The notes under the pieces are model-generated. The model was not told where the DNA came from, did not search any database, and saw only the letters and a program-made list of their open reading frames with translations. 8,185 nucleotides of DNA, taken from a bacterium. Lineage in GTDB: Bacteria > BMS3Abin14. The stretch spans positions 1 to 8,185 of the forward strand of contig JARGFV010000107.1 of NCBI GenBank assembly GCA_029210545.1, given 5' to 3'. This document shows positions 678-6,579 of this stretch, in pieces; the first letter of the stretch is position 1; every line of letters begins with the position of its first letter. The translations under genes were made by a program, and so were the position numbers.

Positions 678-694
678 TTCTTCGACAGGCTCCT
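678..694 (+). repeat. 17-bp dispersed repeat, copy 2
   Basis: This copy differs from the one at 121-137 by a single base (T for C at 682). It lies 39 bp upstream of the HAD start codon. Confidence 0.65.
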
Positions 695-718: not shown

Positions 719-739
719 CACAAAGCACGAAGTACGAAG
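719..739. repeat. Heptamer array A (3 x YACRAAG)
   Basis: Three consecutive 7-bp units are visible: CACAAAG, CACGAAG and TACGAAG. It is short, but it shares the exact period of the other arrays in this window. It lies 80 bp upstream of the HAD start. Confidence 0.55.
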
Positions 740-777
740 ACACCTCTTTTACCGACTCACCTTCGCTCTCGATCAAA

Positions 778-804
778 CGGGCGGCCAGAAATCCGGACCG
801 CCCG
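778..804 (-). terminator. GC-rich hairpin, weak terminator candidate
   Basis: CGGGCGGCC (778-786) pairs with 795-804 apart from one bulged A at 797, leaving an 8-nt loop. Read on the minus strand the hairpin is followed by TTTGAT, a poor U-tract. It lies about 220 bases beyond the paaK stop and could end that transcript. It may equally be just a structured repeat. Confidence 0.3.
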
Positions 805-901
805 GCAGCGCCTTGCCCGCAGATCCCTACAATTTAGTTTCTCTGGTCGGTTAGACAGTGTCTGGGGCAACCGCTACAAGGTAATTATAACAGGTTCATC
901 A

Positions 902-929
902 TCTCAAATCTCAAATCTCAGATCTCAAA
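902..929. repeat. Heptamer array B (4 x TCTCAAA)
   Basis: Four units, TCTCAAA, TCTCAAA, TCTCAGA and TCTCAAA, run head to tail. The array is the left arm of a large inverted repeat with 989-1016. Confidence 0.8.
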
Positions 930-988
930 AAGATCGACCAGAACCCAAAAGCCGGAACAAATAGACACAAATCCGGATTGTTCTCTTC

Positions 989-1016
989 TGAGATATGAGA
1001 TTTGAGATCTGAGATT
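989..1016. repeat. Heptamer array B' (4 x TGAGATN), inverted partner of B
   Basis: The units are TGAGATA, TGAGATT, TGAGATC and TGAGATT, the reverse complement of the array B unit. Segments 901-926 and 990-1015 match as an inverted repeat at 24 of 26 positions around a 63-nt spacer. It starts 9 bases past the last base of the paaK stop codon on the minus strand. A second small hairpin (1021-1028 with 1038-1045, CGCGTCAT arms) straddles that stop codon. Confidence 0.8.
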
Positions 1017-1024
1017 TTTTCGCG

Positions 1025-2290
1025 TCATCTCTTGTCAATGACGCGAACTGCCTTCCCCGGAGGCCTTTCGATACTGCCAATGGCGACCAGCTTCAGGTCG
1101 GACCCGAAAGCGAGGAAATCCTTCAGGATCCGTCCCAGCCTGTCAGCGAGAGCCGTGTCCCCGGGGTTCCGGACCTCGACCGTAATCTCCAGGTGGTCGG
1201 CGCCGGCGACCCGGTCGATAACCAGCAGGTAGTCGTTTCCCACCCCGGGCTCCTTCAAAAGGAGGGACTCGATCTGCTGGGGATAGAAGTTCACCCCCTT
1301 GACCTTGATCATGTCGTCGTTTCGCCCAGTGATGCGGGCGATGCGCAGGTGGGTCCTTCCGCAATCGCACCTGTCCCGGGACACGACGGAGGTGATGTCA
1401 CGCGTCCGGAACCGGATAAGCGGCAGGCCTTCCCGGGTCAGGGTGGTCACCACCATCTCACCTGTTTCCCCGTCAGGCAGGACCGTCCCGGTGTCCGGAT
1501 CGGTGATCTCGACCAGATAGTGATCCTCCCACACGTGAACCCCGGCTCTGGCGGCGCAGTCGATCCCCATCCCGACACCGCCGGTCTCGGTCATGCCGAT
1601 GATGTCGTAGGTGACGATCCCCATCTCTTCCTCGATACGCTCTCTCATCTCGTCACTCCACACCTCTGCGCCGAAGATCCCCACCTTGAGGCTGTTGTCC
1701 CGCCAGTCGAACCCCTGCTCCCTTGCCACCTCCATGAGCCGCAGCGGATAGGAGGCGATGGCCGTGAGACAGGTTGTCCCGAGATCCGCGATAAACTGGA
1801 GCTGCAGGGCGGTCCTGCCGGCCCCGATGGGAACGATGAACGAACCTAAACGGCTGGCCCCGTAATGGAACCCGAACCCGCCGTTGAAAAGCCCGAAGGA
1901 GGGGGTGATCTGGACGACGTCCTCAGACCCGACACCGGCCGCGGCAAAGCACCTGGCCATGATCTCCCCCCACTGATCGACATCCTGCCGCGTATAAGGG
2001 TTGAGGATGGGGGTTCCGGTAGTCCCCGAACTCATGTGAAAGCGCGCAAACTCCCTTTTCGGGGCGCAGGTCAGGGCAAAGGGGTAGGCGTCGCGCAGGT
2101 CGTCCTTGGTCATGAAGGGCAGCTTCGCCACATCATCCACAGAACCGATCTCCTCCGGGTCCACCCTCCCGATCATCCCGTGATAGCCAGGGTTGTGATC
2201 ACGTATCCGTGTCAGGGTCAACCGGAGTTTTTCCAGTTGAAGGTGGACAAGCTGCTCCCGGTCCATGCTCTCTTTTTCAGGCTGATACAT
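1025..2290 (-). CDS. paaK: Phenylacetate-CoA ligase (AMP-forming)
   Basis: This 421-aa adenylate-forming enzyme would make arylacetyl-CoA from an arylacetate, ATP and CoA in the cytosol. The ATP-binding loop SSGTTGTP is at residues 87-94. Later come GAEVWSDEM, the YDIIGMTETGG adenine-site motif, PLIRFRTRD, and the PaaK-type hinge and C-terminal domain with ITGRNDDMIKVKGVNFYP. Length is normal for the family. The ATG at 2290 is preferred because AGGAG (2296-2300) lies 5 nt upstream and the N-terminus (YQPE...MDREQL) fits the family pattern. The frame is open to 2338, but the extra 16 residues are encoded by a heptamer repeat. It lies 176 bases behind iorB in the same direction. IorAB yields arylacetyl-CoA directly, so PaaK probably handles free phenylacetate or (hydroxy)phenyl- or indole-acetate; the exact substrate is not readable. 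Confidence 0.93.
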   Translation of the reverse strand: MYQPEKESMDREQLVHLQLEKLRLTLTRIRDHNPGYHGMIGRVDPEEIGSVDDVAKLPFMTKDDLRDAYPFALTCAPKREFARFHMSSGTTGTPILNPYTRQDVDQWGEIMARCFAAAGVGSEDVVQITPSFGLFNGGFGFHYGASRLGSFIVPIGAGRTALQLQFIADLGTTCLTAIASYPLRLMEVAREQGFDWRDNSLKVGIFGAEVWSDEMRERIEEEMGIVTYDIIGMTETGGVGMGIDCAARAGVHVWEDHYLVEITDPDTGTVLPDGETGEMVVTTLTREGLPLIRFRTRDITSVVSRDRCDCGRTHLRIARITGRNDDMIKVKGVNFYPQQIESLLLKEPGVGNDYLLVIDRVAGADHLEITVEVRNPGDTALADRLGRILKDFLAFGSDLKLVAIGSIERPPGKAVRVIDKR

Positions 2291-2312
2291 CCCGGCTCCT
2301 AATTGGTAATAA

Positions 2313-2333
2313 TTTGGGTTTTGGGTCTTGGGT
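2313..2333. repeat. Heptamer array C (3 x YTTGGGT)
   Basis: The units are TTTGGGT, TTTGGGT and CTTGGGT. On the minus strand they read ACCCAAA-type and produce the spurious N-terminal extension of the paaK frame. Confidence 0.7.
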
Positions 2334-2386
2334 TTCAAGGCACATGCCTGCGTTTATCCCCCGGACTATTTGCCTTTCTCCGTCTA

Positions 2387-2405
2387 CCCTGAGCTTGTCG
2401 AAGGG
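2387..2405. repeat. Dispersed repeat with GAGCTTGTCGAAGGG core
   Basis: This 19-bp segment is flanked by short complementary ends (CCCT and AGGG). Its reverse complement contains TTCGACAAGCTC, which differs by one base from TTCGACAGGCTC at 681-692. This motif type is scattered in many bacterial genomes, and its role is unclear. Confidence 0.5.
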
Positions 2406-2466
2406 TGAACTCTGTGGTGAACGCTCTTCAGGGTTTATTTGGCAGACGCCTGCGGTTCCCCCAAGT

Positions 2467-3033
2467 TCAGATCTTCTCCAGGTCATCTGCGGTTCCCAGG
2501 CCTTTCCGGAAGACCTCAAGGTTTTTTTCCACCGCCTTCGGGGGGCCGCTTTTCACGATGGCCTCCTCGATGGATGCCGCCTTGAGGGGAAAACCTTTCA
2601 CCAACGCCACGGCCCCCCCAAGGAGAGCCAGGTTGACCGATCTCGCATTTCCGCAGTCACGGGCGATACCGTCGGCATCCACAAGGAACACTTTTTGTCC
2701 CTTCCCGGCGGGCAGCGGCGTTTCGGTACCGGCATCGTTGACGAGGATCGAGCCCTCTGCCGACAACAGGGGCCGTGCCAGGGATGTTTCGGCAGGGTGC
2801 AGGACCATGAGCAGATCGCCCGAGCCCATGCGAAACAGGGGGCCGTATACGTCTCCGATGCGCACGAAGCACTGGACCGACCCCCCGCGCATGGCCATTC
2901 CGTGGGTCTCGGTGGTCCTCACCCCCAGCCCCTGCCCAAGAGCGGCAAGCCCCATGACGCGGGAGAGGAAGATAACTCCCTGGCCTCCTCTGCCGGCCAG
3001 CACGATATCATAGGTCGTCAGCCGCCGGCTCAC
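2467..3033 (-). CDS. iorB: Indolepyruvate:ferredoxin oxidoreductase, beta subunit
   Basis: This 188-aa protein is the small (gamma-type 2-oxoacid oxidoreductase) subunit that pairs with IorA to oxidise arylpyruvates to arylacetyl-CoA, CO2 and reduced ferredoxin. The N-terminal glycine-rich motif GRGGQG lies at about residues 14-19. THGMAMRGG at about 43-51 is the family signature that follows it. Length fits IorB (about 190 aa). The start is GTG at 3033, overlapping the iorA stop as GTGA (3030-3033), with GGGGGAGG (3040-3047) 6 nt upstream. This arrangement points to translational coupling and equal dosage of the two subunits. No cofactor-binding cysteine cluster is present, as expected for this subunit. 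Confidence 0.93.
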   Translation of the reverse strand: MSRRLTTYDIVLAGRGGQGVIFLSRVMGLAALGQGLGVRTTETHGMAMRGGSVQCFVRIGDVYGPLFRMGSGDLLMVLHPAETSLARPLLSAEGSILVNDAGTETPLPAGKGQKVFLVDADGIARDCGNARSVNLALLGGAVALVKGFPLKAASIEEAIVKSGPPKAVEKNLEVFRKGLGTADDLEKI

Positions 3034-4976
3034 CTTTCGCCTCCCCCTTCACGTTCACCTTCCTTTACGACGATCGCCCCCCGGGGACACACGTGAACGC
3101 AGACCCCGCATCCCGGGCACAGTTCCTCCACGATGGTGAACTCCCCGTCGTCGGCCCTGATGGCCCGGCATCCGAAACGGTCCGTACAGATGCCGCAGGC
3201 GTTGCATACCTGCCGGTCGATGACGGGCACGGGCCCCTGGCGCTCCCTCAGGTTAAGGACGCAGGGGGAACGGCTGATGACCACGGCCATCTGGCCCTTC
3301 GAAGCAGCCAAAGCCGCCTCTTTGAGGGACCCCGTTAACGCTTCATAATCCAGGGAATCGGTGATCCACAGCTTCGTGACCCCGCACCCCCTCACCACAT
3401 CTTCCAGGGGCACCTTGTTGCCGGGTGTTCCTGACAGGAGGACACCCGACCCTGGAGTAGGCTGACACCCGGTCATGGCGGTCGTACCGTTGTCCACGAT
3501 CAGGAGCACGAAGGCCGCCCCCTGCTGAACGGCATTGACGAGGGCAGGGATACCGGCGTGGTAAAAGGTGGAATCGCCGATGACGGCCGCGATGGGCTGC
3601 CGGCTGCCGGGCGACTGCCGGTAAGCCCAGTAGAAACCGGCAGCCTGGGAGATCGAGGCCCCCATGCACAGGACCGTATCCACCACCCCGAGTTCGATGC
3701 CCAGGGTGTAGCAGCCGATGTCACCGGTATAGATGGCCCCTGGCATCGCCTTCTTCAGGGCCCAGAAAGAGGACCGGTGGGGGCACCCGGCGCATAGCGT
3801 GGGCGGGCTGGGTGACGTCGTCTCCCCTTCTCCTTCAGGAAACGGTTCCGCTTCCCGCACCTCTGCACTGTGAACCGTGCACTGTGAACCGTGAACCGTG
3901 AGAAAGCTGTTCAAAGCTTTCTCAACCACATCCGGTGTGATCTCCCCCTCCGAGGGGACCAGGCCGTCCAGCCTCCCGGAGACATCCAGGCGTTGCCGGA
4001 CCAGCATCTCCATGAAAGGGGACGTTTCCTCGAGAACGAGGATCCGCCCGTACCTGCCAAGGGACTCGATGATCTGTCCTTCGGAAAGAGGCCACGGGCA
4101 TCCGGCCACGAAAAGGGGCACCTCGTCAGCCATCCCCCTGTCGGTCAGAGCGTCCATGGCGTAGGCGGCGGCGACGCCCGAAGCGAGGATGGCAAAGTCG
4201 GCCGGGCCGTTCTCCCCGCGCCAGAAACCGTTCATTTTCGTGACAAGGGGGTCGGATCGCATCTGCCCGAGCTTGCGGTTGAGCTCCCTGTGGAGCGTAA
4301 AGCGGTGTTTTGGCGTCGCCGCCCACCGGTCCGTGTCCTTGATAAACAAGGGCTCCGGACCCTCGAACCGGCGTGTGACCGGCCCGACCGGGCCGCGGGA
4401 GTGACAGATCCTGAGTACCGGCCTCAGGATCACGGGAACCTGGTATTTTTCCGAGATATCGTAGGCCTGGTGGACCATCTCCCTCGCCTGCTCCCCGGTG
4501 GCGGGGTCCAGAACCGGCACACCCGCAGCCATGGCGATGAGGCGCGTGTCCTGTTCGGTCTGGGAGCTGTGGGGGCCGGGATCGTCGGCGACGATGACGA
4601 CCATCCCTCCGGCGACACCGGTGTAGGCGAGGCTCATGAGGGGATCGAGGGCCACGTTGAGACCCACCTGTTTCATGACCGCGGCGCTTCGAAGGCCCGC
4701 ATAGGAAGCGGCCGCGGCCACCTCCAGCGCTATCTTCTCGTTGACCGACCACTCGGTGTGAAGGTTGCCCGCTTCATAAGCCGCCAGGGATTCAAGGATC
4801 TCGGTGGAGGGAGTGCCGGGGTAGGCCGCCGCCACCCGGCAGCCGGCCTCGTAAAGCCCCTGGGCCATGGCCTCGTTACCCAGGAGGAGGCGGGTACCGC
4901 CTCCCCCCGGGGTCCCTGTTGAATTATCGGCAGGGATATCGGCCGGGATGTCAGGGGACAATCTCCCAGCCTCCAT
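3030..4976 (-). CDS. iorA: Indolepyruvate:ferredoxin oxidoreductase, alpha subunit
   Basis: This 648-aa fused subunit carries the thiamine diphosphate (TPP) active site and two Fe-S clusters. The N-terminal pyrimidine-binding domain includes GNEAMAQGLYEAG and AAYPGTPSTEI, followed by a transketolase C-like middle domain. The TPP domain has CAGCPH (395-400), GDS (467-469) and DN (495-496). The C-terminal ferredoxin domain has Cys 591, 594, 597 and 603 (last spacing five residues, then Arg rather than Pro) and Cys 620, 623, 626 and 630 (classic CxxCxxCxxxCP). A 7-bp tandem array encodes residues about 360-371 in the linker before the TPP domain. The ATG at 4976 overlaps the upstream gene by 26 bp but has no well-placed Shine-Dalgarno. 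A TTG at 4961 (643 aa) has GGAGG (4970-4974) 8 nt upstream and may be the real start. The protein is cytosolic and oxygen-sensitive. Its role is fermentation or degradation of aromatic amino acids. Confidence 0.95.
   Translation of the reverse strand: MEAGRLSPDIPADIPADNSTGTPGGGGTRLLLGNEAMAQGLYEAGCRVAAAYPGTPSTEILESLAAYEAGNLHTEWSVNEKIALEVAAAASYAGLRSAAVMKQVGLNVALDPLMSLAYTGVAGGMVVIVADDPGPHSSQTEQDTRLIAMAAGVPVLDPATGEQAREMVHQAYDISEKYQVPVILRPVLRICHSRGPVGPVTRRFEGPEPLFIKDTDRWAATPKHRFTLHRELNRKLGQMRSDPLVTKMNGFWRGENGPADFAILASGVAAAYAMDALTDRGMADEVPLFVAGCPWPLSEGQIIESLGRYGRILVLEETSPFMEMLVRQRLDVSGRLDGLVPSEGEITPDVVEKALNSFLTVHGSQCTVHSAEVREAEPFPEGEGETTSPSPPTLCAGCPHRSSFWALKKAMPGAIYTGDIGCYTLGIELGVVDTVLCMGASISQAAGFYWAYRQSPGSRQPIAAVIGDSTFYHAGIPALVNAVQQGAAFVLLIVDNGTTAMTGCQPTPGSGVLLSGTPGNKVPLEDVVRGCGVTKLWITDSLDYEALTGSLKEAALAASKGQMAVVISRSPCVLNLRERQGPVPVIDRQVCNACGICTDRFGCRAIRADDGEFTIVEELCPGCGVCVHVCPRGAIVVKEGEREGGGER
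3864..3898. repeat. Heptamer array D (5 units) inside iorA
   Basis: The units TGCACTG, TGAACCG, TGCACTG, TGAACCG and TGAACCG make 35 bp without interruption. On the coding strand the array gives the sequence around TVHGSQCTVHS. It lies in the linker between the middle and TPP domains of IorA. Gain or loss of one or two units would shift the iorA frame; three units (21 bp) would keep it. Confidence 0.85.
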
Positions 4977-6096
4977 CCTTGACCCTGACCATTACGAGGG
5001 AATCCTTGGTCAGGCCGTTGTGATCTTCAGGGGACATGTTGAAGGTCCCGTTGATCCCCACGTACCCTTGTGTCTTCTCGATGGCGTCACGGATGCCGGC
5101 CCGGTCGGCGCCGGCGGCGGCGAGAGCCATTTCAATGAGTTTCAGGGCATCGTAGGCATAACCGGTGTGGGTGCTCACGGGCCCGTACTTTTTCTCGTAC
5201 CTCGTTTTCACATCCATGAGGAACGCTTTCGCTGCATCGGAGTCGGCGAGTTTGTCCGCCACGATGAAGCTGCTGGCGGGCATCATGACCCCCTCGGCGG
5301 CCTCGCCGGCCTGCTCGATGAACTTGGGATCGGCCACCCCGTGGCTCATGAAGATGGGGATCTTGACGTCAAGCTGTTTCGCGTTCTTGGTGATGATGGC
5401 GGGAGCCGGTCCGATGCCCCACACAACGATGGCCTGTGCGTCCTTGCCCTTGAGGACGGTGAGCTGGGAGGACATGTCCGTGTCCCTGTCGCCGTAGCGC
5501 TCGTCGGCGACGATCTCGAAGCCGAGGGCTTCCGCCTGGCCCTGGAGGCCCTTGCGCCCGCTGTCCCCGAATCCGCTTGAAGAGGACAGGATGGCGACCT
5601 TTTTAATCCCCTCCCTGGTGAAATAGTCGTAGAGCCGCTCGACGGCCATCGTGTCTGTCTGAGGAGTCTTGAAAACCCATTTTTTAACCGGGACGACCAC
5701 CGGGGACCCGCCCACGCACGCCACCATGGGGACCTCGCTGTCCTGGATGAACTTGATGGACGCCATGGCCGTACCTGTGCTGGTGGGCCCTATGATGGCC
5801 AGGACCTTGTCCTTCTCGATGAGCCGCCGGATGACGGTGACCGCCTGGGTAGGATCCGACTGGGTGTCGTAGGTGATCATTTCGATCTTTTTCCCGTTAA
5901 CGCCACCAGCGGAGTTGATCTCCTCGAGGAGCATCTCGGCGATCTTGGCTGACGGGTCCCCGATGACGGCCGCGGGCCCCGTGAGGGCGAAGGCCGCCCC
6001 GATCTTGTAGGTGTCCGCAGCGTGGGCAGTCAGCTGACCGGCAAGCAGGAAAGCCGCCGCGACAAACAGTACCGCAAACCTCTTTTTCCCCTTCAT
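4951..6096 (-). CDS. ABC-type amino-acid substrate-binding protein (LivJ-like)
   Basis: This 381-aa periplasmic binding protein of the leucine/branched-chain family (type 1 fold) would capture an amino acid or related acid outside the inner membrane. A Sec signal peptide is clear: basic KGKKR, a hydrophobic stretch from about residue 7 to 20, and likely cleavage after AHA (residues 24-26). The mature part begins DTYKIGAAFALTGP, typical of the family, and continues with FVMSHG- and GYAYDALK-like segments. The ATG at 6096 is preferred, with AAGGAG (6103-6108) 6 nt upstream; an in-frame GTG at 6114 lies upstream of that site. It is the first gene of the cluster and overlaps iorA. No permease or ATPase genes follow, so it must use a transporter encoded elsewhere or act as a sensor. 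The neighbours suggest an aromatic amino acid or arylacid ligand, which is inference. Confidence 0.9.
   Translation of the reverse strand: MKGKKRFAVLFVAAAFLLAGQLTAHAADTYKIGAAFALTGPAAVIGDPSAKIAEMLLEEINSAGGVNGKKIEMITYDTQSDPTQAVTVIRRLIEKDKVLAIIGPTSTGTAMASIKFIQDSEVPMVACVGGSPVVVPVKKWVFKTPQTDTMAVERLYDYFTREGIKKVAILSSSSGFGDSGRKGLQGQAEALGFEIVADERYGDRDTDMSSQLTVLKGKDAQAIVVWGIGPAPAIITKNAKQLDVKIPIFMSHGVADPKFIEQAGEAAEGVMMPASSFIVADKLADSDAAKAFLMDVKTRYEKKYGPVSTHTGYAYDALKLIEMALAAAGADRAGIRDAIEKTQGYVGINGTFNMSPEDHNGLTKDSLVMVRVKDGGWEIVP
4970..4974 (-). promoter_or_regulatory. Ribosome-binding site favouring a TTG start for iorA
   Basis: GGAGG lies 8 nt before the in-frame TTG at 4959-4961. It is formed by the end of the annotated ATG plus the next codons, so it cannot serve that ATG. 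Using TTG would shorten the overlap with the binding-protein gene from 26 to 11 bp. Confidence 0.45.
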
Positions 6097-6155
6097 CCTG
6101 TTCTCCTTTCCCACCCTCGTTTGGTTAAGTCCGGTTATCAGATTTTCCGTATTAC

Positions 6156-6171
6156 ATCAAATCCGGTGCCA
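6156..6171 (-). promoter_or_regulatory. Candidate sigma-54 promoter for the binding protein-ior cluster
   Basis: The minus strand reads TGGCACCGGATTTGAT. Against the sigma-54 consensus TGGCAC-N5-TTGCW it has a perfect -24 element, correct spacing, and a -12 element TTGAT with one mismatch (A for C). Transcription would start near 6145, leaving a leader of about 50 nt before the ATG at 6096. This is a motif match by eye only; no enhancer-binding regulator is encoded in the window. Confidence 0.4.
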
Positions 6172-6182
6172 CTTGTTCTTTT

Positions 6183-6196
6183 ACTTTCCACTTTCC
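6183..6196. repeat. Heptamer array E (2 x ACTTTCC plus a degenerate copy)
   Basis: Two perfect units are followed by a degenerate third (ACTATTTCC, to about 6205). The array lies just upstream of the sigma-54-like site. Confidence 0.45.
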
Positions 6197-6256
6197 ACTA
6201 TTTCCTGGTTTCCCTTGCCCTCCGTAGCCAGTCAGGAGGCGTTAGCGAAGGCGGTT

Positions 6257-6291
6257 TCTCCCTTCTCCCTTCTCCCTTCTCCCTTCTCCCT
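6257..6291. repeat. Heptamer array F (5 x TCTCCCT)
   Basis: Five perfect units make 35 bp, a pure pyrimidine tract on the plus strand. It lies about 160 bp upstream of the start codon of the binding-protein gene. A homopurine-homopyrimidine tract of this length can adopt unusual DNA structure, which is inference. Confidence 0.85.
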
Positions 6292-6324
6292 GTTTCCACC
6301 TCCCCCTGTCCTCCGAAGCCTCCG

Positions 6325-6339
6325 GCGACGGCGGATCCT
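6325..6339 (-). repeat. 15-bp dispersed element, inverted copy
   Basis: GCGACGGCGGATCCT is the exact reverse complement of positions 10-24. Similar GC-rich text with GAAGGCGG and CCTCCGAAGCC surrounds it (6225-6250 and 6311-6324), suggesting a family of small degenerate repeats. Confidence 0.55.
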
Positions 6340-6365
6340 TTCTCCCAGTGCGCACAATAAAGAAA

Positions 6366-6386
6366 GCCCCGCCGGTTGGGCGGGGC
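6366..6386. terminator. Strong bidirectional intrinsic terminator
   Basis: GCCCCGCC (6366-6373) and GGCGGGGC (6379-6386) form a perfect 8-bp GC stem with a 5-nt loop. On the minus strand it is followed at once by TTTCTTTATT; on the plus strand CTGGTTTTCT follows. The minus orientation has the better U-tract. It lies 270 bp upstream of the binding-protein start and about 200 bp upstream of the sigma-54-like site, so it would insulate the cluster from upstream transcription. No clear gene ends here. Confidence 0.7.
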
Positions 6387-6544
6387 CTGGTTTTCTATCT
6401 CAGGTTGTTCCTTTTCTAACCCTGGCCTCCCGGCGCACACGGAATTCTATTGCCCGGCCACCAGCACCAGTTGAAGTGAGTAAAAGTATTTTTGGCAAAG
6501 CAAGCGTTCATCGGTTTGTCCTGACTTGGTACCGACTATTGATC

Positions 6545-6579
6545 ACTGTTTACTGTTTACTGTTTACTGACTACTGAAT
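6545..6579. repeat. Heptamer array G (3 perfect plus 2 degenerate ACTGTTT units)
   Basis: Three ACTGTTT units (6545-6565) are followed by ACTGACT and ACTGAAT in the same register. The array interrupts the end of the doubtful minus-strand ORF and marks the rightmost heptamer array in the window. Confidence 0.75.

Follow-up and report, generated by a model that had tools for sequence, protein, structure and literature searches.

Eight heptamer arrays in one window

Why should eight tandem arrays with different units, all within one bacterial locus, keep a period of exactly 7 bp? The earlier note that reported these arrays had read them from the letters of the window (the whole 8,185-nucleotide stretch of DNA analysed here), and all eight proved real, with lag-7 similarity at every interval (12/14 to 28/28). 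TRF assigned period 7 to all but one of them. The arrays, together with the gene that hosts one of them, are as follows:

719..739, no strand: degenerate array of three copies (CACAAAG/CACGAAG/TACGAAG) between paaK and the HAD-like gene; lag-7 identity 12/14; imperfect, missed by TRF
901..929, plus strand: heptamer array (TCTCAAA)4 lying 3' of paaK, where it forms the left arm of an inverted pair; TRF score 51; lag-7 identity 19/21 over 902-929
989..1017, minus strand: array (TGAGATN)4, right arm of the inverted pair and inverse of TCTCAAA; TRF score 51 as a 14-mer; lag-7 identity 18/21 over 989-1016
2313..2335, plus strand: array (TTTGGGT)3.3 in the iorB-paaK gap; TRF score 39; lag-7 identity 13/14 over 2313-2333
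3030..4976, minus strand: iorA, indolepyruvate:ferredoxin oxidoreductase, alpha type, host of one array; Pfam POR_N, TPP_enzyme_C, Fer4
3864..3901, minus strand: heptamer array TGCACTG/TGAACCG inside iorA; TRF scores 62 (14-mer) and 50 (7-mer); lag-7 identity 22/28 over 3864-3898
6183..6199, plus strand: array (ACTTTCC)2.4 upstream of livJ; TRF score 34; lag-7 identity 7/7 over 6183-6196
6256..6291, plus strand: perfect array (TTCTCCC)5.1 upstream of livJ; TRF score 72; lag-7 identity 28/28 over 6257-6291
6545..6579, plus strand: array (ACTGTTT)3.6 decaying into ACTGACT/ACTGAAT; TRF score 50; lag-7 identity 25/28

The remaining genes of the window encode a HAD-like protein (172-642, a weak match), a paaK-type AMP ligase, an iorB-type POR and a livJ-type binding protein. 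As had been claimed, the arrays lie between genes, with one exception, 3864-3901, found in a hypervariable linker of iorA. This array is better described as alternating 7-mers, that is, 2.7 copies of the 14-mer TGCACTGTGAACCG, and it encodes the stretch TVHGSQCTVHSA that links the N-terminal and TPP domains of IorA. The array at 6545-6579 lies beyond a terminator-like hairpin near 6361-6400. TRF also reported a period-7 row at 3595-3610 (unit GGCTGCC) within the iorA coding sequence, which is probably due to chance. For the window as a whole, chance was ruled out as the origin of period 7: lag 7 had six exact runs of at least 9 matches, lags 4-6 and 8-12 had none, and 200 dinucleotide shuffles averaged 0.06 such lag-7 runs and never exceeded 1.

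Period 7 dominates genome-wide

We then examined about 30% of the source genome (G000), an 800-kb sample made up of the leading 20 kb from each of contigs 1-40. The relatives were sampled at 400 kb each for the single-contig genomes G008 and G001 and at smaller sizes for others. Counting TRF rows at a score of at least 36, periods 5/6/7/8/9/10 yielded 0/4/124/68/37/9 rows in G000, 0/6/140/29/20/4 in G008 and 2/4/165/32/15/11 in G001. A run statistic, for which counts should be similar at every lag other than (in coding DNA) multiples of three, matched the spectrum. A genome-wide excess of period 7 over its neighbors had been predicted, and the 124 rows in G000 against 0, 4 and 37 at periods 5, 6 and 9, with which G008 and G001 agree, bear this out. 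The further idea of a step of exactly 7 holds only in part: period 7 is the commonest, but period 8 forms a clear second class in G000 (68 rows). Since the same spectrum appears in relatives that were assembled independently (two as single contigs), an assembly artefact of the source MAG was ruled out. Among loci from 54 other records (622 kb), nine lag-7 runs of at least 10 were found, and the six of at least 11 come from three genomes (a Chloroflexi, a planctomycete and a Clostridiales), at one locus in each.

As in the class of heptanucleotide LSSRs, unit length 7 stood above other lengths genome-wide in all three genomes and arrays were enriched outside coding regions. Using crude gene calls (longest ORFs), 54/83 arrays in G000, 49/67 in G008 and 36/59 in G001 fell outside the called ORFs, in DNA that makes up 13-14% of the total, and few long genes held internal arrays (2/163 in G008; 7/326 in G000). 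Arrays per kb were lowest between divergent genes (0.26-0.46 vs 0.69-0.78 between tandem genes). Exact runs covered just 2-3% of intergenic bases, and arrays therefore do not form the bulk of the gaps. Counts of arrays by replication strand were 29/33 and 19/17 and gave no sign of a bias, in a weak test with replichores guessed from noisy local skew.

The units form a restricted vocabulary

The eight arrays had been taken to share a period without sharing a sequence. This does not hold: the same units turn up at unlinked sites and in different genera, far more often than either of two null models predicts. With any rotation or strand counted as the same unit and neighboring arrays collapsed, we found 42 same-unit pairs among 57 independent arrays of G000, vs 1.8 expected from intergenic heptamers or 7.1 from letter-shuffled units, which rules out wholly unrelated units. 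Between genera, 13 pairs linked G000 to G008 (1.9 expected) and 12 linked G000 to G001 (2.3 expected). The units are therefore drawn from a restricted vocabulary, with common words TTGGAYN, ACTGNYT, GTTCACN, TCTCAAA/ATCTCAG, AGTCCAG, TAGACAC and the polypyrimidine CTTTCCN. The steps GC (0.36 of expectation) and CG (0.46) are avoided in units, and TA (0.67) and AT (0.84) less so; the same steps in other intergenic heptamers stand at 0.87, 0.95, 0.70 and 1.09, respectively.

One word was followed more widely with the probe TTGGANNTTGGANNTTGGA, i.e. (TTGGANN)n, over 290 whole genomes. It matched 11/12 genomes of the family (4 to 141 matches; 54 in the source genome), with no match in G006, and 19/278 genomes outside it. 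Spaced at 8, the probe matched 0/12 family genomes and 9/278 others. A reversed-core control of equal composition also occurred at period 7, more rarely in most of the family, with G004 the exception (12 vs 6). In the sample of G002, arrays were rare or absent. The closest named records by sequence were CP070698.1 (bin582), JALHUC010000564 (PFL40), CP070682.1 (bin676), CSMAG_1715 and SZUA-178. Among the viral contigs of IMG/VR, only 18 stretches carry (TTGGATN)4.

Identical units at unlinked sites could also arise if recombination, gene conversion or small mobile repeats spread units within a genome, the period being inherited from a few founders. REP-like dispersed elements do share these gaps, and one such element has a hairpin arm of period 7, CTTTTCCCTTTCC. 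However, the flanks of same-unit arrays appear different in listings, and copying within a genome cannot explain why the words TTGGACA and TTGGATT occur in unrelated families too; we regard this account as improbable.

Same places, other words at an orthologous locus

The orthologous locus of G008 (CP070698.1, L055) carries arrays at the same places with different units:

iorA linker: TGCACTG/TGAACCG in the window; TCTCAAA plus GATCCGG in G008
iorB-paaK gap: TTTGGGT in the window; (ACCAGAC)3.3 in G008
3' of paaK: TCTCAAA pair in the window; CCAGACA/CTAGAAC with an inverted portion in G008
5' of livJ: ACTTTCC and TTCTCCC in the window; AGGGAAA in G008
Beyond the terminator: ACTGTTT in the window; GGAATCT in G008

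The iorA linker of three other relatives held no array. At the baseline of G008, arrays occur in 18-50% of gaps (by length) but in 1.2% of long genes, so the coincidence in iorA is the surprising part. The positional match with different units concerns one locus and was noticed after the fact, and the samples contained only 7 and 8 shared gaps. A tentative reading, which we would not expect to hold, is that array positions are long-lived while their units are rewritten at a step of 7 (or 8) nt from a restricted vocabulary also present in unrelated families. If true, some enzyme of replication or repair would have to realign intrinsically by 7-8 nt and prefer certain sequences.

Inverted copies, hairpins and possible selection

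The intervals 902-929 and 989-1016 had been counted as two arrays. They are in fact the two arms of one inverted repeat (901-929 and 989-1017), which folds into a single stem of about 30 bp. RNA of the region 895-1024 folds at -51.5 kcal/mol (z -5.89) on the minus strand and at -41.4 kcal/mol (z -5.26) on the plus strand, and the right arm starts 8 bases past the paaK stop (minus strand). In G008, a hairpin-forming array also follows paaK (z -3.7). Inverted copies are a local feature elsewhere too, making up 33% (G008) and 11% (G000) of near pairs (<300 bp) vs 3.5% and 2.3% of far pairs. Close pairs often share a unit in direct orientation (24% in G001, with 2-6% for far pairs).

Selection might keep such arrays as binding sites or structured RNA, with a regulator, RNA chaperone or nucleoid protein reading the heptamer or with hairpins after stop codons protecting mRNA ends. 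The stems after paaK, a vocabulary common to several genera and the positions kept at one locus while sequence changes would all suit this account, and TAACTGA repeats had a proposed role in translational regulation (PMC4679880). Against it, 54 unit classes among 83 arrays of one genome are unlike a single recognition site, the gaps between divergent genes, which are where regulators act, are poor in arrays, and one array lies inside a coding linker. We consider selection an unlikely main explanation. An Rfam search of the window and of loci L055, L195 and L040 gave no known structured RNA. Hairpin formation by the units themselves was rejected as a cause, since arrays of five real units (-5.49 kcal/mol) did not surpass those of shuffled units (-5.85 kcal/mol) in stability.

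Probable strand slippage with a preferred step

The account that we favor, and consider probable, treats the arrays as heptanucleotide simple-sequence repeats whose birth, growth and loss are all due to strand slippage, which strongly prefers a step of 7 nt and, second to it, one of 8. A 7-8 nt duplication would first arise by chance, after which the nascent strand could realign by one unit, such that units are gained or lost and arrays of 2-6 copies form. Point mutations would then cause the units to drift, giving related words and finally a faint lag-7 similarity. Template switching within a gap may produce an occasional inverted copy, and with it hairpins such as 901-1017, and units that slip easily (few self-complementary steps, GC/CG-poor) would be favored, bringing the same words to unlinked sites and other genera. 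The arrays lie in weakly constrained DNA: intergenic gaps, gene ends and the tolerant iorA linker.

With the visible arrays plus 40 bases on each side removed, intergenic lag-7 identity in G001 was still 0.289, vs about 0.26 at neighboring lags, and lags 14 and 21 were also raised, a residue that decayed arrays would be expected to leave. Slippage alone fails to predict the strong recurrence of particular words, and an added preference, selection or copying must be assumed; since unrelated families also contain some of the words, we put the recurrence down to slippage that depends on sequence. Counting against pure slippage, the gaps of G004 and G009 (about 85% identical) differ by larger insertions and deletions too.

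Loops of 7-8 nt generally exceed the size that MutS can repair. This size limit may account for the missing excess of shorter units, and the presence of MutS in G000 and G001 is consistent with repair of short loops and with the lack of an excess at periods 3-6. The MutS_I domain was not detected in G003 and G008. Loss of mismatch repair was ruled out as a cause, since arrays occur both with MutS (G000, G001) and without detected MutS_I (G003, G008).

Another way to obtain many units in a narrow band of periods 7-8, with two step sizes within the same genomes, would be an enzyme with a 7-8 nt step that writes the arrays, by templated or non-templated addition or as a gap-filling polymerase in end joining. 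In the ten family genomes searched, RVT_1 (PF00078) was found only in G003 and G009 and was absent from G000, G001, G008, G005 and G007. Its absence from the array-rich G000, G001 and G008 speaks against templated addition by a reverse transcriptase. Arrays of 2-6 copies with gradual unit drift also resemble slippage rather than writing, and among long SSRs, heptamers are described as the most frequent across many unrelated bacteria, which points to a general cause (Mrazek 2007, as cited in PMC4679880). We consider a writing enzyme very improbable.

What the arrays offer

In bacteria, the predominance of 7 nt in long tandem repeats has been known since 2007; it is still without an explanation in the passages of the literature cited here. 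The family provides a strong natural case, with many independent arrays, many units, steps of both 7 and 8, and relatives near and far, with and without arrays; strains or reads of the family could directly test a polymerase-contact step and which sequences slip. Where a heptamer array lies inside a gene, as in iorA, a new linker peptide can result; motif finders, in turn, could take heptamer words for regulatory sites.

Comparison with known heptamer repeats

The slippage mechanism is plausible but not new, since, as described in PMC4679880 and PMC4692102, heptanucleotide LSSRs were reported by Mrazek, Guo and Shah (2007 PNAS 104:8472) with a proposal of slippage set by a 7-nt polymerase contact. 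Our arrays resemble those LSSRs in that 7 nt is the commonest class of long repeat, the distribution is patchy across phyla and the proposed cause is the same. They differ from LSSRs, as described in those two papers, in belonging to an uncultured family, in having many units per genome that are common to genera, and in their second class of 8.

The heptamers of Xanthomonas (GGGAATC) and Nostoc (GGGGA(C/T)T) are likewise dispersed, intergenic, of few copies and rare between divergent genes; their repeat length and sequence vary between species, as in the family, and in Xanthomonas inverted pairs are common, as here (PMC4692102). However, each of those genomes has one G-quadruplex-forming unit type (PMC4692102), whereas the family has dozens of units, mostly not G4-forming. 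The TAACTGA repeats of Beggiatoaceae, cyanobacteria and Bacteroidetes are also short direct heptamer repeats of 2-6 copies in intergenic DNA, but that system has a single unit, its one-base variants are rarely repeated and it lies mostly just upstream of start codons (PMC4679880), in contrast to the many variant units that form arrays here. Among the units listed for G000, G008 and G001, we found neither GGGAATC, GGGGA(C/T)T nor the TAACTGA class, whose nearest unit was the one-base neighbor ACTGATT.

The earlier note had named the heptameric STRRs of cyanobacteria as the nearest class. The host here does not group with cyanobacteria, as, in IorA comparisons, the named relatives that come closest are uncultured MAGs with the label bacterium or Proteobacteria, followed by Desulfuromonadales and other deltaproteobacteria. 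Cyanobacterial genomes do carry several types of heptameric STRR in one genome, a likeness to the arrays of the family. STRRs have served for fingerprinting in cyanobacteria (PMC5088731). The comparison is apt as an analogy, but the phylum is another and the units differ, with GGGGA(C/T)T as the one unit compared. The heptamer arrays belong to a known bacterial repeat type, and what sets the family apart is its dozens of recurring words and, at one locus, the same places filled with different words.

Tandem words with other steps and in other families

Alongside the heptamer arrays, G000 (the genome of the window) and G008 (a single-contig relative in the same family) carry a second tandem class that has a step of 8 nt and uses words of its own (GACACGGR, GACGCGGA and ACCTAGAT).

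8-nt tandem arrays in sampled stretches
L041:6989-7060, G000
L048:6704-6790, G000
L051:7463, G000
L122:15017, G000
L150:14067, G008

Outside the family, the TTGGA probe at period 7 matched 46 times in G040 and 54 times in G287, and at period 8 it matched 36 times in G075. The reversed core (the equal-composition control) gave 320 matches at period 8 in G256. These are strong tandem-word genomes of other families, and the favoured repeat step may differ between lineages.

Among the 10 family genomes tested for a MutS_I domain, the domain was present in 8 and was not found in G003 and G008 (99% and 81% complete, respectively), both of genus g4, in which a loss of MutS is possible.

Motifs and dispersed elements

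The TTCGACARGCTCM motif, of the CCCTTCGACAAGCTCAGGG type, occurs twice in the window.

TTCGACARGCTCM motif, CCCTTCGACAAGCTCAGGG type
Window 681-693
Window 2390-2402

Matches in the samples numbered 8 in G000, 3 in G008 and 12 in G001 (a second single-contig relative), versus 1 in 1.2 Mb of outgroups, and a heptamer array of family member G004, CTCTGGACCCTTCGACAGGCTCAGGGCAGGCTCTGGAC, contains the motif.

Separately, we observed a dispersed two-hairpin element of ~80-110 bp, GATTTGTRAGGAAAGNGAAAACGACNCTTTTCNCTTTCCGTGGAGCRAAAAGTCCNNNNNGGACTTTTTGCGACCCTGTCA.

Two-hairpin element GATTTGTRAGGAAAGNGAAAACGACNCTTTTCNCTTTCCGTGGAGCRAAAAGTCCNNNNNGGACTTTTTGCGACCCTGTCA
L195:11765-11875
L132:1556-1638, example among G000 sample matches
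L040:3901-3976, example among G000 sample matches
L055:4693-4764, G008 locus orthologous to the window

No copy turned up in the window, in any outgroup or in the sample from G001, and Rfam gave no match. The 800 kb G000 sample holds ~50 matches, with 10 of the 40 sampled contigs starting within the element; BLAST placed it at ~40 sites in G009, another family genome, and it is scarce in G008. The element looks like a family-specific repeat of the REP/MITE kind.
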